Of a DNA stretch of 64,000 nt, positions 13,356 through 26,080 are shown piece after piece. The translations under genes were made by a program, and so were the position numbers. This DNA is from Salinisphaera sp. T31B1 (GTDB lineage: Bacteria; Pseudomonadota; Gammaproteobacteria; Nevskiales; Salinisphaeraceae). Numbering within the stretch: position 1 is the first letter of the stretch; each line of letters opens with the position of its first letter. Below the pieces are notes generated by a model. It ran no database searches and was not told where the DNA came from. It saw only the letters and a program-made list of their open reading frames with translations. Location of the stretch: positions 310,001 through 374,000 of the forward strand of contig NZ_APNH01000003.1 in the NCBI RefSeq assembly GCF_040361275.1. Direction: 5' to 3'.

Positions 13356-13429
13356 TGGGGGATCGTCTAGTGGTAGGACTACGGACTCTGACTCCGTCAA
13401 CGGGGGTTCGAATCCCTCTCCCCCAGCCA
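13356..13429 (+). tRNA. tRNA-Gln (anticodon CUG)
   Basis: A 74-base cloverleaf with encoded CCA. The acceptor arms TGGGGGA (13356-13362) and TCCCCCA (13419-13425) pair over 7 bp; discriminator G is 13426 and CCA is 13427-13429. The anticodon stem ACGGA / TCCGT (13381-13385, 13393-13397) encloses loop CTCTGAC, giving anticodon CUG at 13388-13390. The T-arm carries GGTTCGAATCC. The U-A first pair of the acceptor stem is typical of glutamine tRNAs. Confidence 0.97.
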
Positions 13430-13510
13430 GCACTCAAAGCCCGCCGAATGGCGGGCTTTTTTATGGGTGCTGGCTGGAGGAGAGATCCTGGTTCGAACCC
13501 CTCGGTTCGA
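13425..13510 (+). repeat. 86-bp direct repeat, copy 1 (overlaps tRNA-Gln 3' end)
   Basis: Matches 13641-13726 at 85 of 86 positions. It begins inside the tRNA 3' end (AGCCA), contains a nested inverted repeat with a terminator, and ends with a T-arm-like GGTTCGAACCC followed by CTCGGTTCGA. The only difference (T at 13434 versus C at 13650) lies in the outer stem and leaves a G-U pair in RNA. Confidence 0.95.
13436..13462 (+). terminator. Intrinsic terminator of tRNA-Gln
   Basis: Stem GCCCGCC / GGCGGGC (7 bp) with loop GAAT, preceded by AAA and followed by six T. It is nested in longer arms (CCAGCACTCA / TGGGTGCTGG) whose first three bases are the CCA end of the tRNA. Confidence 0.9.
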
Positions 13511-13640
13511 CGAGCGAGCATTGCTCGCGAGACCCGGGGCGCGTAGCGCCACGGGCCCCGAAGGGGTGAGCGGCGCCAGCCGCGAATAATCCGTAAGCAA
13601 CCGCTCGTCCGACGGCTGTCGAAACCAAAGTAAGCTGACT

Positions 13641-13726
13641 AGCCAGCACCCAAAGCCCGCCGAATGGCGGGCTTTTTTATGGGTGCTGGCTGGAGGAGAG
13701 ATCCTGGTTCGAACCCCTCGGTTCGA
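13641..13726 (+). repeat. 86-bp direct repeat, copy 2
   Basis: Second copy of the element at 13425-13510, starting 216 bases further on. It keeps the tRNA-end-like AGCCA at its left edge although no tRNA body precedes it. The 130 bases between the copies hold short palindromes (GCGAGCATTGCTCGC) but no gene. Confidence 0.95.
13652..13678 (+). terminator. Intrinsic terminator in repeat copy 2
   Basis: Identical GCCCGCC-GAAT-GGCGGGC hairpin followed by six T. It would stop any transcription that passes the first terminator and insulates the downstream hydrolase gene. Confidence 0.85.
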
Positions 13727-13850
13727 GAACCGCGCTAGGCGCTTTCGCGGGCGCCCCGGGCAACTTGAATCGGCGTGGTTCAGGTTAGACTGCGCGCCTT
13801 TCGCTCGGCCGTATGAAATCGGCCGGTTTGTCATCGACGGGAGCGCTGTC

Positions 13851-14801: not shown

Positions 14802-14817
14802 TGGCCCGCTTTTTGCT
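14802..14817 (+). promoter_or_regulatory. Sigma-54 promoter candidate for nasT
   Basis: TGGCCCG-N4-TTGCT, with -24 GG at 14803-14804 and -12 GC at 14815-14816, exactly 10 bases between. Only one position of the TGGCACG...TTGC consensus is missed. Predicted start near 14828, about 30 bases before nasT. No clear NtrC site is seen upstream of this one. Confidence 0.55.
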
Positions 14818-14862: not shown

Positions 14863-15429
14863 ATGCGTGTATTGCTCGTGGATCGTCATTCAGCGCGTCT
14901 GGCCACGCTCGAACGGGTGATCGTGGCGGCCGGTTTCAATGTCGTGGCGGTATTGGGTGAAGACGCCGATCTCTATACGGCCGTGAATCGATATACCCCG
15001 GATGCCGTCATCGTCGGCGCCGATTCACCCTCGCGCGACGTGCTCGAGGATCTGTCCACGCTCGGCCAGCGCTATCCAAAACCCCTGCTCATGCTGGCAT
15101 CCCGGGACGACCGGGCACTGATGGCGCGGGCGACCGAGGCCGGTATCAGCGCCTACGTGATGGATGGCCTGTCCGCGGCACTGGTTCGATCGCTGGTGGA
15201 CGTGGCGATGCGCCAGTATCGCCAGATGGAGTCGCTCAAGCGCGAACTGGCCGAAACCCGTGAGACGCTTGCCGATCGCCAGGTGATCGATCGAGCGAAG
15301 TGCCTGCTGATGGAACATCGTGCAATGAGCGAAAAACAGGCCTATTCGCAGCTGCGCAAGAGCGCCATGGATCACGGTCTGCCCCTGCCCGAGATCGCTC
15401 GTCGGGTCATGGTCCGCGCGGCCGAGTGA
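14863..15429 (+). CDS. nasT: ANTAR-domain antiterminator NasT
   Basis: Response-regulator-like RNA-binding protein of 188 residues. The N-terminal pseudo-receiver (MRVLLVDRHSARLATLERVI) is followed by a coiled-coil and the C-terminal ANTAR domain (DRQVIDRAKCLLMEHRAMSEKQAYSQLRKSAMDH, with the conserved A-K-x-L-M and A-Y/A-x3-L-R-x2-A-M pattern; broken here only for description). In Paracoccus, Azotobacter and Pseudomonas, NasT binds two hairpins in the nas leader and prevents termination; NasS blocks it until nitrate or nitrite binds. GTG at 14857 is an alternative start. A sigma-54 promoter candidate lies upstream, and the predicted RNA target is in the next gap. Confidence 0.93.
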   Translation: MRVLLVDRHSARLATLERVIVAAGFNVVAVLGEDADLYTAVNRYTPDAVIVGADSPSRDVLEDLSTLGQRYPKPLLMLASRDDRALMARATEAGISAYVMDGLSAALVRSLVDVAMRQYRQMESLKRELAETRETLADRQVIDRAKCLLMEHRAMSEKQAYSQLRKSAMDHGLPLPEIARRVMVRAAE

Positions 15430-15443
15430 GGCGCCGGGCCGGC

Positions 15444-15478
15444 GCACGAAAACAGTGCGATGTGCAATCGACATGCAC
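15444..15478. promoter_or_regulatory. NtrC-type enhancer site candidates
   Basis: GCAC-N7-GTGC at 15444-15458 matches the NtrC consensus arrangement, and a second inverted repeat GTGCA-N7-TGCAC occupies 15462-15478. They lie about 140-170 bases upstream of the predicted start of the sigma-54 promoter at 15591, a usual enhancer distance. Confidence 0.5.
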
Positions 15479-15590
15479 TGCGGGCACGCGCTGAGCCGAA
15501 CAGGAACGCCCCGTATTGTCCGGCGCGACCTAAGCGTTCTGCCTGCTCGAGTGTGCCGTGTGCGGCCAATACTGGATAAGCGCTCCAAGC

Positions 15591-15606
15591 TGGCACGGAC
15601 GATGCA
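15591..15606 (+). promoter_or_regulatory. Sigma-54 promoter of the nasS operon
   Basis: TGGCACG-GACG-ATGCA. The -24 half is the exact consensus; the -12 half has TGC with GG and GC (15592-15593, 15604-15605) separated by the required 10 bases. Predicted start near 15617, which puts both leader hairpins and the terminator in the transcript. Confidence 0.72.
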
Positions 15607-15624
15607 ACACCATTGACGAAGGGC

Positions 15625-15689
15625 GTGGCCGGCGAACGATACGGCGGCCACTTTCCGGACAATCTGGTTTCCAGGGCAATGAAGCCCGG
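15625..15689 (+). promoter_or_regulatory. ANTAR (NasT) two-hairpin RNA target in nas leader
   Basis: Hairpin P1: GTGGCCG (15625-15631) pairs with CGGCCAC (15645-15651), one G-G mismatch, then C-G and G-C, closing a loop AACGATA. Hairpin P2: GGGC (15674-15677) pairs with GCCC (15684-15687), closing the hexaloop AATGAA. Both loops have A at position 1 and G at position 4, the hallmark of ANTAR targets. P1's loop is one base longer than the canonical six. P2's right arm is also the left arm of the terminator at 15682. Confidence 0.72.
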
Positions 15690-15730
15690 TACGCCACAGG
15701 CCGTCGGCCCGTGTGCGGCCGGGCTTTTTT
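15682..15730 (+). terminator. Leader attenuator terminator before nasS
   Basis: AAGCCCGG (15682-15689) pairs perfectly with CCGGGCTT (15719-15726), with further internal pairing (CAC.GGCC / GGCC.GTG) and a run of six T at 15725-15730. Its left arm includes the last two loop bases and the right arm of hairpin P2, so the two folds are mutually exclusive. Confidence 0.85.
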
Positions 15731-15775
15731 AATGCCTGTCATCCGGCAGGCGCCCCATCACTCAGGGACACGGCG

Positions 15776-17149
15776 ATGACCGCATGGCATGAGGTGAACT
15801 TCGGCCGCAAGGGACGCTATATCGGCCGTCCCCATGAACGCGACACGCTGCGACTCGGGTTCATCGCGTTGACCGATTGCGCGCCGTTGGTCGTCGCCCG
15901 CGAGGCCGGCTTCTTCGAGGCCGAAGGGCTGGGCGTGGCGCTGTCGCGGGAGTCGTCATGGGCGGCCATTCGCGACAAGGTCGCGCTCGGGATGCTCGAC
16001 GGCGCCCAGATGCTCGCCGGCATGCCGATCGCCTCGACGCTCGGGCTTGGCGCATCCCCGCATCCGATGGTCACCGCGCTCTCGCTCAGCCTCAACGGCA
16101 ATGCCATCACCGTGGCGTCGTCGTTGTTCGAGCGCATGCAGGCCGTCGACCCCGTGGCCATGGCTGCCCGCCCCTGTAGCGCGGCCGCGCTCAAGCGGAT
16201 CATCGACGCCGATCGCGCCGCCGGGCTGGAACCATTGACGTTCGCCATGGTGCACCCGGCCTCGATGCACAACTATCAGCTGCGCTATTGGCTGGCCTCC
16301 GCGGGGATCGACCCGGACCGGGATGTCCGGCTCATCGTGGTGCCGCCGGCGCGTATGGTCGCCAATCTGGCCGCGGGGCGTGTTGCCGGATACTGCGTCG
16401 GCGAGCCGTGGAATCAGATGGCGGTACGTGCCGGGTTGGGGCATGCGCTGATCACCGGCCACGAGATATGGAACAACGCGCCCGAAAAGGTGCTCGGCGT
16501 CAGCCATGACTGGGCACGGACGAACCCGCGTACCCATGGCGCTCTGATTCGTGCGCTGGTACGTGCCGGCCGCTGGCTGGACGACCCCGCCAATCGTCAG
16601 GACGCGGCCGATCTGCTCGCCGGCACCGAATATGTCGATGCGCCGGCCGACGTCATTCGCCGCACGCTGGGTGGCCGGTTCTGTTATCGCCCGGGTGCCG
16701 CGCCCCGGCCGGCGCCGGATTTCAACGTGTTCTATCGCCATGCGGCGACCTTCCCATGGCGTTCGCATGCGATGTGGCTGCTCAGCCAGATGATTCGCTG
16801 GGGCCAGATCGCCATGCCGCTGGATATTGCCGCCACGGCGGCCCGGGTATATCGGCCGGATATCTACCGCGAGGCAGTCGCCTGTCTCGGCCTGGCGGTG
16901 CCGACGGCCGATCACAAGCGTGAAGGCACACACCGCCAGCCCTGGACGCTGGCCAGCGCCGAGGCCGAGCCGATCGCGATGGGTGCCGACGCCTTCTTCG
17001 ACGGCCGGGTGTTCGACCCCGGCGACGTGCTGGCCTATCTGCGCAGCATCCCGGTCCATCGCCGGGGTGCGCGTGTGGCCGAACTGGCGCCACTCAATCC
17101 GATGTTCTCCACGCCGGCGCTCGGCCCGGCCCCTGTCTTCGAGGAGTAG
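15776..17149 (+). CDS. nasS: Nitrate/nitrite sensor NasS
   Basis: Periplasmic-binding-protein-fold protein related to NrtA/CmpA, 457 residues. It has no signal peptide: the N-terminus (MTAWHEVNFGRKGRY) is hydrophilic and leads straight into the binding fold (LRLGFIALTDCAPLVVAREAGFFEAEGL). That points to the cytoplasmic sensor NasS rather than an ABC-transporter component, and no ABC permease or ATPase gene is nearby. In characterised systems NasS sequesters NasT and releases it when nitrate or nitrite binds. It starts 46 bases after the attenuator T-run and is 5 bases upstream of the transporter gene. A longer start at 15713 would overlap the terminator and is rejected. Confidence 0.87.
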   Translation: MTAWHEVNFGRKGRYIGRPHERDTLRLGFIALTDCAPLVVAREAGFFEAEGLGVALSRESSWAAIRDKVALGMLDGAQMLAGMPIASTLGLGASPHPMVTALSLSLNGNAITVASSLFERMQAVDPVAMAARPCSAAALKRIIDADRAAGLEPLTFAMVHPASMHNYQLRYWLASAGIDPDRDVRLIVVPPARMVANLAAGRVAGYCVGEPWNQMAVRAGLGHALITGHEIWNNAPEKVLGVSHDWARTNPRTHGALIRALVRAGRWLDDPANRQDAADLLAGTEYVDAPADVIRRTLGGRFCYRPGAAPRPAPDFNVFYRHAATFPWRSHAMWLLSQMIRWGQIAMPLDIAATAARVYRPDIYREAVACLGLAVPTADHKREGTHRQPWTLASAEAEPIAMGADAFFDGRVFDPGDVLAYLRSIPVHRRGARVAELAPLNPMFSTPALGPAPVFEE

Positions 17150-17154
17150 TACCC

Positions 17155-18522
17155 ATGGAACTTGCCAATAAGGCCACCCGCATCCGCCTGTTCGACTTCA
17201 AGTCGGTACAAATGCGGGCCTTTCATATGAGCTGGGTGGCCTTTCACCTGTGTTTCTTCGGCTGGTTCGGTATCGCGCCGCTCATGGCCGTGGTGCGCGA
17301 GGATCTGAATCTCGACAAGTCGATGGTCGGCTCGACCATCATCGCCTCGGTGGCGATCACGGTGCTGGTGCGCCTGATCATCGGTCCGCTGTGCGACAAG
17401 TTCGGACCGCGCAAGACCTATTCGACGCTGCTGATTCTGGGCTCGATCCCGGTCATGTGTATCGGTTTTGCCGACAGCTTCGAGACGTTTCTGCTGGCGC
17501 GGCTGTGTATCGGCGCGATCGGTGCGTCGTTCGTGATCACCCAGTACCACACGTCGGTGATGTTCGCGCCCAATATCGTGGGCACGGCGAATGCCACCAC
17601 CGCAGGCTGGGGCAATCTCGGCGGCGGCACCACACAGATGGTCATGCCGCTGATCTTCACCGTCATCGTCTCGCTCGGGATCAACGAATTCCTGGGCTGG
17701 CGCCTGGCCATGGTGGTGCCCGGCATCCTGCTGTTCGTGCTCGGCCTGGCCTACTGGAAATTCACCCAGGACGCGCCGGACGGCAATTATTCCGACCTGC
17801 GCGCGGCCGGCAAGATTCCGCCGGCCGACCGCGAGAACGGCGGCATGGCCAGCTTCAAGAAGGCCGCGGCGGACTATCGCGTCTGGGCGTTGTTCGTGGT
17901 CTATGCCGGCTGTTTCGGCGTCGAGCTGACCATCAACAACGTCGCTGCCATCTATTTCTTCGACAACTTCGAGGTCGGCCTGGAAACGGCGGGCCTGATC
18001 GCCGGTCTGTTCGGCCTGATGAATATCTTCGCGCGCACCATGGGCGGCTTCTTCTCGGATCTGTCGGCGCGCTATATGGGCCTCACCGGCCGGGTGCGCT
18101 TTCTGTTCGCTGCCATGTTCATCGAGGGGATCGCCCTGGTGACGTTCTCGCAGATGGAGGTGCTGGCCACCGCCATCGCCACCATGATCGTGTTCAGCCT
18201 GTTCGTGCAGATGTCCGAGGGCGCGACCTTCGGGCTGGTGCCGTTCATGAACAAGAAGGCGCTCGGCGGGGTGAACGGCATCGTCGGTGCCGGCGGCAAC
18301 GCCGGGGCGGTGCTCGCCGGTTTTCTGTTCAAGAGCGAATCGCTGTCCTATGGCCAGGGGCTGATGTTTCTCGGCTGTGCGGTGATCGTGTGTTCGTTCT
18401 TCGCCTTCTTCGTGCGCTTTTCGCCCGAAGTACTGGCCGAGGAAAAGGCCGCCTTCGATACGGCTTCGTCCGGCGAGGACCCGATCAAGGCGCGTGGCGG
18501 CAACACGCCGGAACCGGCCTAG
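17155..18522 (+). CDS. narK: Nitrate/nitrite transporter, NarK/NasA family (MFS)
   Basis: Major-facilitator protein of the nitrate/nitrite porter family, 455 residues with about 12 hydrophobic segments. The nitrate signature GWGNLGGG (in ATTAGWGNLGGGTTQM) and the MFS motif between segments 2 and 3 (GPLCDKFGPRKTY) are intact; a second glycine-rich signature GAGGNAGAV occurs later. It imports nitrate for the assimilatory reductases that follow. It is 5 bases after nasS and 12 before the oxidoreductase gene, inside one operon. Confidence 0.94.
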   Translation: MELANKATRIRLFDFKSVQMRAFHMSWVAFHLCFFGWFGIAPLMAVVREDLNLDKSMVGSTIIASVAITVLVRLIIGPLCDKFGPRKTYSTLLILGSIPVMCIGFADSFETFLLARLCIGAIGASFVITQYHTSVMFAPNIVGTANATTAGWGNLGGGTTQMVMPLIFTVIVSLGINEFLGWRLAMVVPGILLFVLGLAYWKFTQDAPDGNYSDLRAAGKIPPADRENGGMASFKKAAADYRVWALFVVYAGCFGVELTINNVAAIYFFDNFEVGLETAGLIAGLFGLMNIFARTMGGFFSDLSARYMGLTGRVRFLFAAMFIEGIALVTFSQMEVLATAIATMIVFSLFVQMSEGATFGLVPFMNKKALGGVNGIVGAGGNAGAVLAGFLFKSESLSYGQGLMFLGCAVIVCSFFAFFVRFSPEVLAEEKAAFDTASSGEDPIKARGGNTPEPA

Positions 18523-18534
18523 TCGGAAACCAAC

Positions 18535-19800
18535 ATGAGCGAGAACACGCCACCGAAACTCGATCTGGTCGTGATCGGTAACGGCATGGCCGGGCTGCGC
18601 ACGCTCGAAGAGGTGCTCGATGCCGCGCCGGAGCGCTACAACGTGACCGTGTTCGGCGCCGAGCCGCATGTCAGCTACAACCGCATCATGCTTTCGCCCG
18701 TGTTGGCCGGCGACAAGGCCTTCGAGGAGATCGAGACCCACGGCCGCGACTGGTATGCCGGTCACGACATCGCCCTCCATACGGGCGAAGCCGTGGTGGA
18801 TATCGACCGGCGCCGGCGCATGGTCGTCTCGGACACCGGCCGCGAGATCGGCTACGACCGGCTGCTGCTGGCGACCGGTTCCACGCCGTTCATCCTGCCG
18901 GTGCCCGGGCACACGCTCGCAGGGGTGATCAGCTTTCGCGATATCGGCGATGTCCATCGCATGGTCGAGGCCAGCGAAAACGGTGGCCGGGCGGTCGTCA
19001 TCGGCGGCGGGCTGCTGGGCCTGGAAGCGGCCTACGGTCTGCACAAGCGCGGCATGGACGTGACCATCGTCCATCTCATGGACACGCTCATGGAACGCCA
19101 GCTCGATCCGGCAGCCGCCGAGCTGTTGCAGTATTCACTCGCCCAGCGTGGCCTGTCGTTTCGCATGGGCGCGAAAACGGCCGCCATTCTCGGCGACGAC
19201 GCAGGCCGGGTCGCGGGGCTGCGTTTCGACGATGCCGACGACTCCGAGATTGCCGCCGATCTCGTGGTGATGGCGGTAGGCATCCGCCCGAATGTGGATC
19301 TGGCGAAAAAAGCCGGTCTGCACTGCGAGAAGGGCATCGTCGTCAACGACACCATGCAGACCTACGATCCGCGGATCTATGCCGTGGGCGAATGCGTGGA
19401 GCATCGCCACTCGGTGTATGGCCTCGTCGCGCCGCTATGGGATCAGGCCAAGGTCTGTGCCAATCATCTGGCCTATCGCGGCCATACCCAGTACGAAGGC
19501 TCGGTGACCGCCACCCAGCTCAAGGTCACCGGCATCGATGTGTACTCGGCCGGCGATTTCTCGGCCGCCGAGGGCAGCGAGACCCTGATCTTTTCGGACG
19601 TGCGCCGCGGCGTCTACAAGCGCATCGTGCTGCGCGACGAGCGCGTGATCGGCGTGGTGCTTTATGGCGACACCCGCGACGGCGGCTGGTATTTCAAGCT
19701 CATGCGTGCGGGCACGAACGTCTCGGCGTTTCGCGATCAGCTGCTGTTCGGCCAGGTTTATGTGGCGCAGGACACGCCCGCCGCGGCGGAGGCGGCCTGA
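18535..19800 (+). CDS. NirB-like FAD/NAD(P)H oxidoreductase, nitrate reductase electron-transfer subunit
   Basis: Pyridine-nucleotide-disulphide oxidoreductase-type flavoprotein, 421 residues. It has an N-terminal FAD motif (VVIGNGMAGLRTLEEV), the NirB-type segment VSYNRIMLSPVLAGD, a second dinucleotide motif VVIGGGLLGLEAAYGL near residue 160, and an FAD-closing block IYAVGECVEHR. It corresponds to the first third of NirB and to the small NasC/NasB-type subunits of assimilatory nitrate reductase, but lacks a siroheme domain. It probably passes electrons from NAD(P)H to the catalytic subunit, whose start codon overlaps its stop (TGATG at 19798-19802). Confidence 0.88.
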   Translation: MSENTPPKLDLVVIGNGMAGLRTLEEVLDAAPERYNVTVFGAEPHVSYNRIMLSPVLAGDKAFEEIETHGRDWYAGHDIALHTGEAVVDIDRRRRMVVSDTGREIGYDRLLLATGSTPFILPVPGHTLAGVISFRDIGDVHRMVEASENGGRAVVIGGGLLGLEAAYGLHKRGMDVTIVHLMDTLMERQLDPAAAELLQYSLAQRGLSFRMGAKTAAILGDDAGRVAGLRFDDADDSEIAADLVVMAVGIRPNVDLAKKAGLHCEKGIVVNDTMQTYDPRIYAVGECVEHRHSVYGLVAPLWDQAKVCANHLAYRGHTQYEGSVTATQLKVTGIDVYSAGDFSAAEGSETLIFSDVRRGVYKRIVLRDERVIGVVLYGDTRDGGWYFKLMRAGTNVSAFRDQLLFGQVYVAQDTPAAAEAA

Positions 19801-22472
19801 TGACCGGCCTGACCACGCGTACCACCTGTCCGTATTGCGGCGTGGGCTGCGGCGTGAATGCTGTGGTCGAGAACGGCGCCGTGCGCGTGGCCGGCGACGC
19901 GGCGCATCCGTCCAATCTGGGCAGCCTGTGTTCCAAGGGCACGGCACTGGCCGACACGGTCGGCCTCGACGGGCGGCTGCTCCATCCGATGGTGGACGGC
20001 CGGCGTGCGAGCTGGGACAACGCGCTCGACGAGGTCGCGGCGCGCTTTGGCGAGATCATCGCTGAACACGGCCCCGACGCGGTGGCCTTCTATGTCTCCG
20101 GCCAGCTGCTCACCGAGGACTATTACGTCGCCAACAAGCTGATGAAGGGCTATATCGGCTCGGCGAATATCGATACCAACTCGCGGCTGTGTATGTCGTC
20201 GGCGGTGGCCGGCCACAAGCGCGCCTTCGGCGAGGACGTGGTGCCCGGCTGCTACGAGGATCTGGAACGCGCCGACCTTGTTGTTTTGGTCGGCTCGAAC
20301 ACGGCCTGGTGTCACCCGGTGGTCTACCAGCGCATCGTCGCCGCGCAGGAGAACGACCCCAACAAGAAACTCGTGGTGATCGATCCGCGCCGGACGGCCA
20401 CCGCCGAAGGCGCCGATCTGCATCTGCCGCTCGCGCCCGGGACCGACGTGCATCTGTTCAATGGCCTGCTGGGCTATCTGGCCGGGCAGGGGGTCAGCAG
20501 CGATCTGCCCGGTGCGCAGGAGGCTGTTGCCGAGGCCCGCGAGATCGGCGATATCGATGCAGTGGCCGAGGCCTGCGGCGTGGATGCCAGCACGGTAACA
20601 GCCTTTTTCGAGTTGTTTGCCCAGACCGAACGCACGGTCACCGTCTTTTCCCAGGGCGTGAACCAGTCCTCGGCCGGCACCGACAAGGTCAACGCCATTC
20701 TCAACTGCCATCTGCTGACCGACCGTATCGGCAAGCCCGGGGCCTGCCCGTTCTCGATCACCGGTCAGCCCAATGCCATGGGCGGGCGCGAGGTGGGTGG
20801 GCTGTCCAGCACGCTGGCCGCGCATATGGGCTTCGACGGCGCCGATCGTGTCCGGCGGTTCTGGGATTCGCCCGTGATCGCGCGCGAGCCCGGCCTGAAA
20901 GCGGTGGAACTGTTCGAGGCGATCGAGTCCGGCCAGGTCAAGGCGGTCTGGATCATGGCGACCAATCCGCTGGTGAGCCTGCCGCATGCCGATCGTGCCA
21001 AACGCGCACTTGAAGCCTGCGAGTTCGTGGCCGTGTCCGACTGCATGCGCCATACCGATACGGTCGATCGCGCGCATGTGCTGCTGCCGGCCGCGGCCTG
21101 GGGCGAAAAGAGCGGCACGGTCACCAATTCCGAACGCATCATTTCGCGCCAGCGCGCGTTCTTGCCCATGCCGGGCGCGGCGCGTGCGGACTGGGACATC
21201 ATCTGCGACGTCGCGCGCCGGATGGGCTTCGACGGTTTCGATTTCGACAGCCCGGCGGCGATCTTTCGTGAGCATGCGGCACTCACCGCGTTCGAAAACG
21301 ACGGCGAGCGTGTGCTCGATCTCGATGGCCTGAGCGATCTCGCCGACAGCGAATACGACACGCTCGAGCCGGTACGCTGGCCCGTGCATGCCACGCAGGC
21401 TCTGCGTGCCGCGGGTGCGATGCCGGTCGCACAGGACAGCCGGCGTCTATTCGCCGATGGCGTCTATCCCACATCGGATGGCCGGGCGCATCTGGTCGCG
21501 GTGACGCCACGCGGTCCGGCCAATGGGGTCAGCGATCAATGGCCACTGGCACTGAATACCGGGCGCATACGCGATCACTGGCACACGATGACGCGCACGG
21601 CCAAATCCGCGCGGCTGTCGGCCCATATTCCGGAGCCGTTCGTGGAAGTGCACTCGGATGACGCCCAAAGCTACGGCGTGAACGACGGTGCCATCGCGAC
21701 CGTATCGACCGCGCTGGGCGAGGCCCAGCTACGCGTGATCGTCACCGACGGTCAGCGCCAGGGCGCGCTGTTCGTACCCATGCACTGGAACGACCAGTTC
21801 GCCGCCCGCGCACGCGTCGGCGCGCTCGCCAATCCGGCCGTCTGTCCGATCTCGGGCGAGCCGGAGTTCAAGCACACGCCGGCGGCTATCGCGGCCTTTG
21901 ACGCGGCCTGGCATGGCTTCATTCTCGCCAGCCGGCCGCTGCTTCTGGCCGGCGAGGCGAGTATCGACTACTGGGTGAAGATTCCGGGCGAGCGCTTCTA
22001 TCGCTACGAGGTCGCAGGCCTGCATACCCCCGACGACTGGGCCGCGACCGTACGCGCCTGGATCGGCGTGGGCGAGCGCACGGCAGACTGGCTGGAAGCG
22101 GCGGATACGGCCGCCGGGCGTTACCGCGCCGCGCATATGGATGCCGGGCACGTCGAGGCCTGTGTGTTCATCGCTCCCGAGCCCGCCGCGCTACCCGATC
22201 GCAGCTGGCTTTCCAGCCTGTTCACCGGCGAGCCGGTCGACGAGGCCGAACGCGCGGGCCTGCTCGCGGGCCGCCCGGCCGACCCCGGTACAGACCCGGG
22301 CCCGCAGGTGTGCTCCTGCTTCGGCGTCGGTCGCAACACGATTGCGCGGGCGATCGATGCACACGGCCTGACCAGCGTGGCCGCGGTCGGCGACGCGCTC
22401 GATGCCGGCACCAACTGCGGCTCCTGCAAGCCCGAGATCGCCGCGCTGATAGAAGCGCAGGCGGGCGAATGA
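19800..22472 (+). CDS. nasA: Assimilatory nitrate reductase catalytic subunit
   Basis: Molybdopterin (bis-MGD) reductase that reduces nitrate to nitrite in the cytoplasm, 890 residues. The N-terminal [4Fe-4S] site has C10, C13, C17 (CPYCGVGC) and C44 (SLCSKG). The body has typical molybdopterin blocks (SSAVAGHKRAFGED, TGQPNAMGGREVGG, NTGRIRDHWHTMTR). The C-terminal 53 residues form a Bfd-like [2Fe-2S] domain with C838, C840, C873 and C876, as in Klebsiella NasA and NirB. ATG 19800 overlaps the preceding stop by one base; residues read further upstream in the same frame are out-of-frame translation of the flavoprotein gene. Confidence 0.95.
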   Translation: MTGLTTRTTCPYCGVGCGVNAVVENGAVRVAGDAAHPSNLGSLCSKGTALADTVGLDGRLLHPMVDGRRASWDNALDEVAARFGEIIAEHGPDAVAFYVSGQLLTEDYYVANKLMKGYIGSANIDTNSRLCMSSAVAGHKRAFGEDVVPGCYEDLERADLVVLVGSNTAWCHPVVYQRIVAAQENDPNKKLVVIDPRRTATAEGADLHLPLAPGTDVHLFNGLLGYLAGQGVSSDLPGAQEAVAEAREIGDIDAVAEACGVDASTVTAFFELFAQTERTVTVFSQGVNQSSAGTDKVNAILNCHLLTDRIGKPGACPFSITGQPNAMGGREVGGLSSTLAAHMGFDGADRVRRFWDSPVIAREPGLKAVELFEAIESGQVKAVWIMATNPLVSLPHADRAKRALEACEFVAVSDCMRHTDTVDRAHVLLPAAAWGEKSGTVTNSERIISRQRAFLPMPGAARADWDIICDVARRMGFDGFDFDSPAAIFREHAALTAFENDGERVLDLDGLSDLADSEYDTLEPVRWPVHATQALRAAGAMPVAQDSRRLFADGVYPTSDGRAHLVAVTPRGPANGVSDQWPLALNTGRIRDHWHTMTRTAKSARLSAHIPEPFVEVHSDDAQSYGVNDGAIATVSTALGEAQLRVIVTDGQRQGALFVPMHWNDQFAARARVGALANPAVCPISGEPEFKHTPAAIAAFDAAWHGFILASRPLLLAGEASIDYWVKIPGERFYRYEVAGLHTPDDWAATVRAWIGVGERTADWLEAADTAAGRYRAAHMDAGHVEACVFIAPEPAALPDRSWLSSLFTGEPVDEAERAGLLAGRPADPGTDPGPQVCSCFGVGRNTIARAIDAHGLTSVAAVGDALDAGTNCGSCKPEIAALIEAQAGE

Positions 22473-22521
22473 TTCATCCCGATTTCATCGACAACCGTTC
22501 GACCACACGGATCGACCCCTC

Positions 22522-24453
22522 ATGAGCACACAGGATTTCGACGAAGAACAGCAGCGCTATCTCAAGGGCGTGACCGCCGGGCTGCATATCGCCCGCGGCG
22601 TGCCCGGCATGACCGGACTGACCACCGGCAAGCGTCTGCGCCCCGACGATTTTCATTCCCAGGCGCGTATTCGGGCCCAGGCGATGGGCGGCGAGCTGAC
22701 CAGCCAGGAGGAGGCCAAGGCCGATCTCAACCCCAACGACATGTGGAACGAGATGGTGGCGCTGGCCAACCTGGGCGAGTATCCGAAAGGCGGCGACGTG
22801 TTCCTGATGAAGGGGCGCGGGTTGTTCTATGTCGCGCCCAATCAGGACAGCTACATGTGCCGGCTGCGCATGCCCGGCGGCATCTTCTCGTCGCATCAGT
22901 TTCGTGCCGTGGCCGACCTGGCCGAGGCCTACGGCGGCGGCTATACCCATGTCACCACGCGCGCCAATCTGCAGATTCGCGAGATCGGGCCGCGGGATTC
23001 GGTGAACGTGCTGATGGGCCTGCAGGACGTCGGCATCCTCAATCAAGGCAGCGGCGGGGACAACATCCGCAACATCACCGGCAGTCCGCTGGCCGGCATC
23101 GATCCGGACGAACTGATCGACGTCACGCCCTACTGCCGGGCGATGCACCACCATATCCTCAACCACCGCGAGCTCTACGGCCTGCCGCGCAAGTTCAATA
23201 TCGCCTTCGATGGCGGCGGGCGGATCAGCGCGCTGGAAGGCACCAACGACATCGGTTTTTCTGCCGTGCTGCCCAAGGCCGATGGACCGTTGCCGCGACG
23301 GCCGTACTTCCGCATGGGCCTGGGCGGCATCACCGGCCACAAGGACTTCGCCCGCGATACCGGCGTCATGCTCAAACCCGAGGAATGTGTTCCCGTCGCG
23401 CACGCGGTGCTGCACGTGTTTCTGGCCAACGGCGATCGCACCAGCCGCGACAAGGCGCGGCTGAAGTACGTGCTCGATCGCTGGGGCTTCGACAAGTTCA
23501 TGCGCGAGGTACAGAAAAAACTGCCGTTCACCCTGCGCCGCTACCCGCTGTCGCGTTGCGAGGCCCGGCACCCGGTGGACAAGGCCGGGCATGTGGGCAT
23601 CCACGATCAGGTCGACGACAAGCAGTATGTCGGTATCGTGCTGCCGGTCGGCCGGCTGACCGTCGACCAGATGCACGGTCTGGCCGATCTCGCCGATCGC
23701 CATGCCGACGCGAAGATGCGTACCACCGTCTGGCAGAACCTGGTGCTCGGTAATGTCGACCGATCCGCTATGGACGCGCTCGTGGCCGGCATCGAAAAGC
23801 TCGGCCTGCATGTGCACGCCAGTCCCGCGCGTACCGGCATGGTGGCCTGTACCGGCAGCTTCGGCTGCAAGTTCGCCAACGCCGAAACCAAGGCCAAGGC
23901 GCTCACGCTGGTCGATCATCTCGAGGACACGCTGGCGCTGGACGCGCCGCTCAATATCCATATGACCGGCTGCCCGAACTCCTGTGCCCAGCACTATGTC
24001 GGCGATATCGGGCTGCTCGGCGCGCGCGTGAGCGATCCCGACGCCGTCGACCCGGAAGAGGCCGATCAGGTCGATGGTTTCCATGTCTATATCGGCGGCG
24101 GCTACGAAGACGAGCAGGGCATCGCCCGCGAGCTGGCGACCGCCATTCCGGCCGTGCACCTGAACGCCTATCTGGAGAACCTGCTCGGGCTGTATCTCGA
24201 CGAGCGCAACGCCAGCGAGCGATTCGTGGCCTATGCCCGGCGCCAGGATATCGACGAGCTCAGGCAGCGGCTCGCCGAGCGCTCGGACAAAGCCGGGCAA
24301 GCCCAGCGCGAATCCGAAGAAAAAGCGTATTCCGAAGCCGAGGCCCGGGCCGATACGCCCGAACAGGCCAAGACCGAACGCGATGACGCGGCCACCGACG
24401 ATTACGACCGGTCGCCGGACGAGGCGGACGACGACGAGCAGAAAACGGCCTGA
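22522..24453 (+). CDS. Siroheme nitrite/sulfite reductase hemoprotein
   Basis: Siroheme/[4Fe-4S] six-electron reductase, 643 residues, probably reducing nitrite to ammonium given its place in the nas operon. The cluster-siroheme cysteines are C443 and C449 (C-x5-C, CTGSFGC) and C484 and C488 (C-x3-C, TGCPNSC). The duplicated ferredoxin-like half-domains are seen as THVTTRANLQIREI and the second GNVDRS region. After about residue 585 comes a hydrophilic, strongly acidic tail (many E, D, Q, A) absent from typical NirA or CysI proteins. A sulfite-reducing role cannot be excluded, since families overlap; the flavoprotein that follows is its likely electron donor. Confidence 0.9.
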   Translation: MSTQDFDEEQQRYLKGVTAGLHIARGVPGMTGLTTGKRLRPDDFHSQARIRAQAMGGELTSQEEAKADLNPNDMWNEMVALANLGEYPKGGDVFLMKGRGLFYVAPNQDSYMCRLRMPGGIFSSHQFRAVADLAEAYGGGYTHVTTRANLQIREIGPRDSVNVLMGLQDVGILNQGSGGDNIRNITGSPLAGIDPDELIDVTPYCRAMHHHILNHRELYGLPRKFNIAFDGGGRISALEGTNDIGFSAVLPKADGPLPRRPYFRMGLGGITGHKDFARDTGVMLKPEECVPVAHAVLHVFLANGDRTSRDKARLKYVLDRWGFDKFMREVQKKLPFTLRRYPLSRCEARHPVDKAGHVGIHDQVDDKQYVGIVLPVGRLTVDQMHGLADLADRHADAKMRTTVWQNLVLGNVDRSAMDALVAGIEKLGLHVHASPARTGMVACTGSFGCKFANAETKAKALTLVDHLEDTLALDAPLNIHMTGCPNSCAQHYVGDIGLLGARVSDPDAVDPEEADQVDGFHVYIGGGYEDEQGIARELATAIPAVHLNAYLENLLGLYLDERNASERFVAYARRQDIDELRQRLAERSDKAGQAQRESEEKAYSEAEARADTPEQAKTERDDAATDDYDRSPDEADDDEQKTA

Positions 24454-24514
24454 GCGACGCGTCGTTCAAGACGGTGATCCGCAGGAAAGCAAAAGCGCGA
24501 GCACGAGGTAACCC

Positions 24515-26080
24515 ATGCCCACACAAGTCGATCTGATTCCCGAGGACGCGCCGTTCGAGGCCGAGCAGCGCGAATGGCTCAACGGCCTGATTGCCGCACT
24601 CGCCGGTTGGGAAGGCTCGCTCGGCGGGGGCGATCAGGGCGGCGGCGAGGCCAAGGAGTCCTTTCCCTGGCACGACCCGGCCATGGAAATGGACGAGCGC
24701 ATGGAACTGGCCGAAGGCAAGCCGCACGAGCGCCAGCTGATGGCTGCCATGGCCCAGCTCGACTGTGGCCAGTGCGGCTATCTGTGCAAGACCTATGCAG
24801 AAGCCATCGCCTTCGAAGGCGAGGATCTCAACCGCTGCGTGCCGGGGGCCAAGGAAACCGAGCGCAAGCTCAAGGAGCTGGTTGCCGAGCATGACGCGGC
24901 CAACAGTGGCAGCGGCGAAGAAGAAAAGCCCAAGCCCGAGCCCAAGCCGAAGAAGAAGGCGCCGCTGGGCACGCGCGACAACCCCTACATGGCGAAGCTC
25001 AAGTCGAGCACGCCGCTCAATGCCGAAGGCTCGACCAAGGACACCCGCCACGTGGTGATCGATCTGGGCGATTCCGGTATCGAATACCAAGCCGGCGATT
25101 CGATGGGCATCTACCCGGAGAACGACCCGCGCACGGTCGATGCGATCCTGGCGGATATCGATGCCTCGGGTGGCGAGAAGGTGAAGGCCCCGGACGGCGA
25201 GAACAAGCTCCTGCGCCAAGTGCTGCTCAAGGACGTGGATATCACCAAGCCCAGCGACGAAGTCGTCTCCGTGCTGGCGGAATCCGCTACCGACGCCGAT
25301 GAAGCAGAGGATCTGCGCATGCTCGCCGAACGCGGCGTGGAAGAGGGCCAGACCCTGCTCGAGATCGTGCGCGTCTATCCGAGTGCGCGGCCCAAAGTGC
25401 AGGCGATGGTCGACGCGCTCGGCCCGTTGCAGCCGCGACTGTATTCGATCGCCTCGTCGTCGCGGGTCTATCCGAACGAGATTCATACCACCGTCGCCGT
25501 GGTGAAGACCGCGGTCTATGGCCGTGGCTACAAGGGCGTGGCGTCCACATTCCTTGCCAAGCGGCTGTCGCGCCACGGCGAAGTACCGTTGTATATCCAG
25601 CCTAGCCAGGAATTTCGTGTGTGCGCCGACCCCGATCATCCCGCGATCATGATCGGCCCGGGTACCGGCATCGCGCCGTTCATGGCCTTTCTGCAGGAAC
25701 GCGAGGCACGCGGCGATGCCGGCAGGAACTGGGTCTTTTTCGGCAACCCGGAATCGGCGAAAGACCATATCTACAAGGATCAGCTCGAGAAATGGCGCCA
25801 CGGCGGGCTGATCAGCCGGCTCACGCTCGCTTTCTCGCGCGATCAGCAGGACAAGGTCTATGTCCAGGACCGCATGCGCGAACAGGCACGCGAGTTCTGG
25901 GCCTGGTTGGAGGCGGGTGCCGTGATCTATATCTGCGGCGACGCCGAGCGCATGGCCAAGGACGTGGATACGGCGTTGCACGACATCGTCGCCGAGCAGG
26001 GCCGGCTGAGCGAAGCCGAAGCCAGGCGCTATGTGGAAACGCTGTCGTCCGAGCATCGCTACCTGCGCGACGTGTACTAG
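24515..26080 (+). CDS. Fe-S/FAD sulfite-reductase-type flavoprotein (donor to nitrite reductase)
   Basis: NADPH-linked flavoprotein of 521 residues related to the C-terminal FAD/NADPH half of CysJ. Instead of an FMN flavodoxin domain it has a small Fe-S module with C84, C87, C91 (CGQCGYLC) and C108 (RCVPG), then a Lys/Pro/Glu-rich linker at about residues 134-150. The FAD site RLYSIASS is at 308-315, the NADPH site GPGTGIAPF at 381-389, ICGD near 473-475, and the protein ends YLRDVY, as CysJ ends in a similar tyrosine. It is 61 bases after the hemoprotein, so it probably supplies electrons to nitrite reduction. Similar proteins are annotated as sulfite reductase alpha subunits, sometimes fused to nitrate reductase. 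Confidence 0.87.
   Translation: MPTQVDLIPEDAPFEAEQREWLNGLIAALAGWEGSLGGGDQGGGEAKESFPWHDPAMEMDERMELAEGKPHERQLMAAMAQLDCGQCGYLCKTYAEAIAFEGEDLNRCVPGAKETERKLKELVAEHDAANSGSGEEEKPKPEPKPKKKAPLGTRDNPYMAKLKSSTPLNAEGSTKDTRHVVIDLGDSGIEYQAGDSMGIYPENDPRTVDAILADIDASGGEKVKAPDGENKLLRQVLLKDVDITKPSDEVVSVLAESATDADEAEDLRMLAERGVEEGQTLLEIVRVYPSARPKVQAMVDALGPLQPRLYSIASSSRVYPNEIHTTVAVVKTAVYGRGYKGVASTFLAKRLSRHGEVPLYIQPSQEFRVCADPDHPAIMIGPGTGIAPFMAFLQEREARGDAGRNWVFFGNPESAKDHIYKDQLEKWRHGGLISRLTLAFSRDQQDKVYVQDRMREQAREFWAWLEAGAVIYICGDAERMAKDVDTALHDIVAEQGRLSEAEARRYVETLSSEHRYLRDVY

Follow-up and report, generated by a model that had tools for sequence, protein, structure and literature searches.

The locus described here lies in a window of 64,000 nucleotides (the whole stretch of DNA that was analysed) from Salinisphaera sp. 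T31B1, and all the protein-coding genes named in this paragraph are on its plus strand. The gene nasT (14863..15429, with the start placed at the second possible codon) encodes a receiver-like domain and an ANTAR domain; the latter was matched by PF03861 with 65.7 bits and the former by Response_reg with 26.1 bits, below the cut-off of 30.2. It is followed by a gap of 346 nt (15430-15775), which contains two hairpins, P1 and P2, and an intrinsic terminator. The first gene behind this leader is nasS (15776..17149), coding for an NrtA-like putative nitrate sensor (NMT1_2, 299 bits; NrtC, CmpC, and NrtA chains were also matched); its product resembles the regulatory domain of NrtC as well as NrtA, and by eye the N-terminus is without a signal-like start. 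Then come a NarK-family nitrate/nitrite transporter (17155..18522; TIGR00886, 302 bits, below the cut-off of 311.7), a stand-alone FAD reductase whose family matches liken it to the N-terminal portion of NirB (18535..19800), a molybdopterin oxidoreductase with a C-terminal BFD [2Fe-2S] domain (19800..22472), a NirA-family nitrite/sulfite reductase (22522..24453; PRK09567, above the cut-off), and a CysJ-like flavoprotein reductase (24515..26080; PRK06214, above the cut-off). The best NCBIfam matches of the molybdopterin oxidoreductase (FdhA, NasC) were below their cut-offs, and from the operon context its product is taken as the putative assimilatory nitrate reductase (nasA). The genes of 15776-26080, nasS through the CysJ-like gene, are tightly packed (no gap exceeds 61 nt), and between 15400 and 27200 no plus-strand terminator-like site followed by at least 5 consecutive T was found besides that of the leader. 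The NirB-like FAD reductase, the BFD-bearing molybdopterin reductase, and the NirA-type and CysJ-like reductases (18535-26080) form an unusual set for one operon. Upstream of the locus, at 13485-13730 behind a tRNA gene (13356-13426), GATCCTGGTTCGAACCCCTCGGTTCGA is present twice (near 13484 and 13700) and resembles a tRNA 3′ end.

NasT and the putative promoters

A search of the genome found nasT to be its sole ANTAR match. In its receiver-like domain the motif VIVGADSP carries a glycine at what we take, by motif and from the general anatomy of receivers, to be the position of the phosphorylated aspartate, and several more distant NasT proteins have LIDVDSP there. The acceptor appears to be lost in all nine genus sequences aligned (VIVGADSP or similar), as would suit a protein controlled by NasS and not by a kinase. 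It was also possible to find a single convincing ANTAR target in the genome, the leader itself, with an E value of 1e-7 in a model search that scored 150 of 8,495 first-look candidates, so that a weaker second target could have been missed. The next candidate (C1:230043, E 0.06) looked, on inspection by eye, like a simple GC terminator, and it was discarded.

Two sites on the plus strand resemble −24/−12 promoters of sigma54, judged by what we take to be its consensus. One (TGGCCCGCTTTTTGCT, 14802..14817) lies before nasT, has 1 mismatch, and has a counterpart at the matching place in 8/10 genus loci; the other (TGGCACGGACGATGCA, 15591..15606) precedes the leader, is found at the matching place in all 10, and would place the transcription start near 15617. 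The 64 kb hold three such matches while 1.7 are expected, so a match is not significant alone. At 15443..15459, with no strand assigned, there is a palindrome, CGCACGAAAACAGTGCG, of the pattern [TC]GCAC-N7-GTGC[AG], presumably an NtrC-like site by its resemblance to the consensus. Eight of the 10 genus leaders have this pattern, at 102-148 nt before the sigma54-like site, and the other two (L010, L011) do not. Both rpoN and ntrC are encoded in the genome.

P2, the overlapping terminator, and their conservation

P2 (GGGC-AATGAA-GCCC, 15674..15687, plus strand) was identified from the sequence, by RNAfold, and by comparison within the genus. Its hexaloop AATGAA has A at position 1, G at position 4, and a C:G closing pair, that is, the canonical ANTAR loop, and its stem can gain CC/GG past one bulged A. 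The 31-nt piece around it is mildly stable (z −1.47; 15/200 shuffles as stable). The intrinsic terminator occupies 15681..15730 on the same strand, with a left arm that overlaps the right arm of P2 and the end of its loop: AAGCCCGG (15682-15689) pairs with CCGGGCTT (15719-15726). The original prediction placed six T behind the right arm; there are six T in total (15725-15730), but only four follow CCGGGCTT, since the first two sit inside that arm. In RNAfold the piece 15678-15735 formed the terminator with −33.9 kcal/mol (z −4.91; 0/200 shuffles as stable), and for the RNA from 15617 to 15735 the fold was again that of the terminator, with P1 left intact (−58.1 kcal/mol; z −3.09; 1/200). When the RNA was ended at 15700, without the right arm of the terminator, the fold comprised P1, P2, and a small hairpin between them. 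The predicted reuse of the P2 right arm by the terminator is thus borne out, and the two folds are mutually exclusive; the coordinates given beforehand for P1, P2, and the terminator were all correct, as was the presence of A1 and G4 in both loops (AACGATA and AATGAA).

Mutually exclusive structures are also what a small-molecule riboswitch or another attenuator working without a protein would have. Such a device is very improbable here, considering that the conserved features are those of an ANTAR target, that an ANTAR gene adjoins the leader, and that Rfam gave no match to the leader at the gathering threshold, or in 15400-15800 with E values up to 5.

The overlap of a hexaloop with a terminator is not rare per se: with other loop letters the scan returned three further entries, none of which exceeds the minimum of 7 terminator pairs and two of which overlap. 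With A1/G4 and a stem of at least 4 pairs there was one entry in the whole window, with 10 terminator pairs. Shuffling the 346-nt gap (plus strand) gave an A1/G4 hexaloop with terminator in 0/20,000 cases, and dinucleotide shuffles of the whole window on both strands gave at least one such site in 3/20, 3/200, and 12/400 cases (three runs). Along 1.29 Mb, comprising the window and the nas loci, the hexaloops overlapping a terminator were A1/G4 in 70 cases, G1/G4 in 19, and any other motif in at most 6. These 70 sites were drawn from the window, L032-L071, and L075-L154 after removal of exact 50-nt repeats; L001-L031 and L072-L074 are omitted, being overlapping or from another search, and a few, such as L148, one of the pair in L141, and a site in L048 that is the P1 of the adjacent one, are probably false. 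Taken by itself, P2 is weak evidence, and the case rests on the combination of features and on their conservation.

Among the Salinisphaera genomes examined, nasT was found in that of the window and in 9 of 13 others. All ten have the same order, namely, nasT, sigma54-like site, leader, terminator, and nasS, and in all ten leaders, which were first located by gene order, P2 keeps A1, G4, the C:G closing pair, and the overlapping terminator. A P2-plus-terminator RNA model found one target per genome in 10 of the 14 genus genomes and none in the four without a nasT match; this co-occurrence is partly trivial, because nasT and the leader form one locus. The identity of NasT to that of the window is 78-81% in L003-L006, 76% in L007 and L008, 67% in L010, and 65% in L009, and path lengths in the tree rank them in the same order; S. 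shabanensis E1L3A has the same locus as well (L075). Two observations concern nasT copies elsewhere. In L040 (3942-4503, genome G084) two overlapping fragments, each in its own frame, make up the nasT match, with the leader and a nasS-like gene remaining. In L153 (3950-7859) S. orenii MK-B5 carries another nasT, a distant one (42%). The genes that follow it, judged by eye on their translations, encode an NrtA-like protein with a Tat-like start, a cyanase-like protein, and a FocA/NirC-like transporter, and no leader turned up in L153 in the P2 scan.

In the folding and covariation check that had been proposed, the folds and the conservation of P2 and the terminator stood, while covariation was thin. 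In the genus alignment all 40 cells of P2 are paired (12.5-55% when the partners are slid), with three invariant pairs and a fourth that is A-U, G-C, or G-U, the one pair of P2 changed on both sides, and a score reached in 37/500 shuffles. For the genus terminator 98.8% of cells are paired and zero pairs are changed on both sides, so it yields no covariation. In a wider set of 24 distinct rows from the order, 97.9% of the terminator cells are paired, compared with 28-54% when partners are slid by 1-3 columns; the alignment rows (25) were picked from the 70 sites by a scan requiring both stems and at least 7 terminator pairs, and the pairing percentages of the order rows for P2 and the terminator are therefore partly built in. 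In the terminator of these 24 rows 38 cells are changed on both sides versus 16.0 in shuffles, and the covariation is 0.609 versus 0.280, neither reached in any of 500 shuffles. Two stricter counts for the terminator did not exceed the shuffles, with 4 versus 3.6 pairs changed on both sides and 12 versus 11.9 further pair types (reached by 327 and 371 of 500), and neither did the same two counts for P2 (316/500 twice). The loop letters are better evidence than the pairing and covariation counts.

Taking into account that a strong terminator stands on the same strand about 250-300 nt behind nasT, it could simply be the 3′ end of nasT, with the operon controlled by sigma54 and NtrC only and the loops coincidental. 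We consider this very improbable, though slightly less so than the riboswitch, since a sigma54-like site lies between nasT and the terminator in all 10 genus leaders, A1/G4 is strongly favoured over other loop letters at terminators, and none of the 20,000 gap shuffles produced the arrangement.

The P1 hairpin and the linker

P1 (15625..15651, plus strand) was defined from the sequence, RNAfold, and the comparison of sites. Its outer stem consists of seven pairs (15625-15631 with 15645-15651), followed by a G.G mismatch (15632/15644) and the inner pairs C15633-G15643 and G15634-C15642, so that a seven-base loop, AACGATA (15635-15641), is closed by G:C. RNAfold returned exactly this hairpin with −17.9 kcal/mol (z −3.17; 1/200 shuffles as stable). 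P1 aside, the 90 nt upstream of P2 contain no A1/G4 hexaloop with at least 3 pairs.

By comparison with the 70 P2-plus-terminator sites, this form is atypical. An A1/G4 hexaloop with a stem of at least 4 pairs lies upstream of 46 of them (the next motifs, 15), and the closing pair of these 46 comparable hairpins is C:G in 41, T:G in 3, G:C in 1, and G:T in 1, the sole G:C case being S. shabanensis. Among C:G-closed hexaloops upstream of the 70 sites A1/G4 is strongly enriched (42 sites; next motif, 5), while among the G:C-closed ones it falls outside the six commonest motifs. A seven-base A1/G4 loop as a generally accepted form of P1 was also considered and rejected, given that AG is not the leading motif of seven-base loops among the 70 sites, with 9 sites versus 17 for CG.

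The four nearest relatives of the window by NasT identity (L003-L006) depart as well. No P1 was found in L003; S. shabanensis (L004) has an AACGAT hexaloop closed by G:C, in whose minimum-energy fold A1 pairs with U6 to leave a four-base loop; and L005 and L006 have a seven-base loop, ATCGTGA, closed by G:C on four pairs. The window loop begins with the six bases AACGAT and so looks like the S. shabanensis loop with one A added. In the remaining five leaders of the genus P1 has an A1/G4 hexaloop closed by C:G, namely, AATGGC (L007, L008, L011), AACGGG (L009), and AACGAC (L010). Conservation of the loops in relatives, raised beforehand as a check, was therefore found for P2 in all ten leaders and only in part for P1, which is canonical in five.

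The seven-base loop of P1 had been described as a small departure from the canonical six. It is not small: the closing pair is G:C too, A1/G4 is enriched with C:G closing and not with G:C, and in EutV replacing the bases of the two closing pairs of P1 so that they still paired disrupted induction (PMC3369931). According to the same source, changing A1 or G4 of either loop reduced induction by EutV, as did deleting P1, with which induction was lost. NasR selects A1/G4 hexaloops with C:G closing (PMC7496416), and in Paracoccus the upstream hairpin HI is essential, being needed for growth on nitrate, while mutation of HII hardly altered expression with nitrate (PMC5424462). In the light of these results, the P1 of the window would be either tolerated in an altered form or relaxed.

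The P1-P2 linker is 22 nt long (15652-15673), with 43 nt from loop to loop. In the eut leaders of E. faecalis linkers measure 5-12 nt, and one of 14 nt failed for EutV (PMC3369931); the linker here is outside that range. Across the 46 P1-bearing sites the linker varies from 3 to 66 nt, and the Paracoccus hairpins, 137 and 91 bp before nasA, are 46 bp apart (PMC5424462), from which it seems that the short-linker rule does not hold for NasT leaders and that a short linker is probably not a defining trait of them. Several loci from the order (L045, L046, L048, L050, L057) have at least 2 ANTAR-like targets near nas genes, and one class of these targets combines a short linker with a GGAT/GTCC stem of P2 that is closed by T:G.

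Within the linker, ACAAT (15659..15663, plus strand; consensus ACAAY) forms the tip of a small hairpin predicted at 15655-15667. ACAAY is kept in 10/10 genus leaders, with ACAA ending 7-11 nt before P2, and it is also present in some leaders of other genera (L044, L064, L070, L071); it occurs in 15 of the 70 linkers compared with 3.3 expected from shuffled linkers (maximum of 10 in 2,000).

These data bear on whether P2 is used as usual while P1 is no longer canonical, having been altered or relaxed or replaced by another second element, for example ACAAY. We regard this as possible but on balance doubtful. The window and its four nearest relatives have no canonical P1, the other five leaders do, and all ten keep P2 and ACAAY, as this reading would have it. 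On the other side, A1 and G4 are retained in the P1 of four of the five departing leaders; EutV needs P1 (PMC3369931) and HI is the essential hairpin of Paracoccus (PMC5424462); and in the NasT tree the five are not resolved as a clade of their own, for which reason the P1 change as a property of a single NasT clade was set aside. Somewhat less probable still is the fuller version, in which P1 would have drifted or been lost in this species, S. shabanensis, and the nearest relatives with P2 fixed, NasT would use P2 and some other contact such as ACAAY, and the antagonist would lie behind its own antiterminator.

The proposed switch and comparison with known systems

The explanation that we favour is that the leader of the Salinisphaera nas operon is a NasT-controlled antitermination switch, to which we assign a probability of about 90%. 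It is favoured by the absence of the arrangement in 20,000 gap shuffles, its conservation in 10/10 genus leaders, the preference for A1/G4 loops, and the coexistence of a lone ANTAR gene with a lone convincing target. In this respect the original prediction, a NasT-type leader before nasS and a packed nas operon, agrees with what was found, namely, P2 and terminator in all ten leaders, nasT adjoining, and a single ANTAR gene.

In the proposed mechanism, when nitrogen is scarce, NtrC and sigma54 would start transcription near 15617, as judged from their putative sites. Without free NasT, the segment 15681-15730 would fold as the terminator and transcription would stop before nasS. Nitrate or nitrite would free NasT from NasS. 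In Paracoccus the NasS-NasT complex comes apart with nitrate, leaving NasT free for the nasA leader RNA, to which it binds (PMC3795266). Free NasT would then hold P2, and probably also P1, so that the right arm of P2 would be unavailable to the terminator and the polymerase could read through into nasS-narK-FAD reductase-nasA-nirA-cysJ. Because nasS, the gene of the NasT antagonist, is the first behind the switch, read-through would also make more inhibitor, and this order is likely to provide negative feedback.

The position of nasS was compared over nas loci of relatives (80 of 588 relatives kept), with gene order alone read for the plasmid of Paracoccus sp. AK26. Within 79 named loci (L076-L154; the order loci L041-L071 are excluded) a leader was detected on the nasT strand in 28, and by eye it stood before the first NrtA/NasS-like gene in 10 and after it in 18, in a scan that overlooks leaders and takes account of no such gene after the first. 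Of the N-termini read for eight of those 10 (all except L129 and L151), only that of L085, a Chromatiales MAG, belongs to a signal-less NasS; in L131 a signal-less NasS is present further downstream. A leader directly before nasS is not unique to the genus, as L085 has the same order, yet nasS behind its own switch is rare among the nasT loci examined outside Salinisphaera.

By titles and the beginnings of abstracts, we found in the literature searched no account of a Salinisphaera NasT or of a leader between nasT and nasS. If P1 works normally, the leader would be an ordinary new member of the NasT leaders. The genus nevertheless offers a series of ten NasT leaders in which P1 is canonical in five, P2 is canonical throughout, and the NasT proteins are closely related, which makes it testable whether both ANTAR hairpins must be canonical.

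Altogether, this is a known system in a modest variant, which differs in the form of P1 and in the position of nasS. The closest likeness is to NasS-NasT of Paracoccus denitrificans, with a NasT of receiver-like and ANTAR domains, a signal-less NrtA-like NasS, leader hairpins, and, as predicted here, Ntr control (PMC3795266, PMC5424462). In Paracoccus nasS is cotranscribed with nasT and is followed by the leader and then nasA (PMC5424462), while here the leader lies between nasT and nasS. The eut leaders of Enterococcus faecalis EutV share the A1/G4 hexaloop of P2 overlapping the terminator and the upstream P1, and differ from the window in its seven-base loop and G:C pair of P1, its linker of 22 versus 5-12 nt, and a receiver apparently without the phosphorylated aspartate (PMC3369931). 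With NasR and the nasF leader of Klebsiella the proposed switch has in common the nitrate-controlled ANTAR antitermination of assimilatory genes, and A1/G4 loops with C:G closing in selected RNAs; NasR senses nitrate by its own NIT domain, whereas here a separate NasS is expected to do so (PMC3369936, PMC7496416). AmiC-AmiR of Pseudomonas aeruginosa (amiECBRS) likewise combines a ligand-binding antagonist with an ANTAR protein whose pseudo-receiver is not phosphorylated, and has the antagonist gene in the antiterminated operon, amiC lying behind the AmiR-controlled leader by the operon order as named; it serves amide catabolism, and amiR is inside the operon, while Salinisphaera nasT is upstream of the leader (PMC3369936). 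By this analogy, the logic that we propose for nasS, an antagonist behind the leader that it controls, would not be new.
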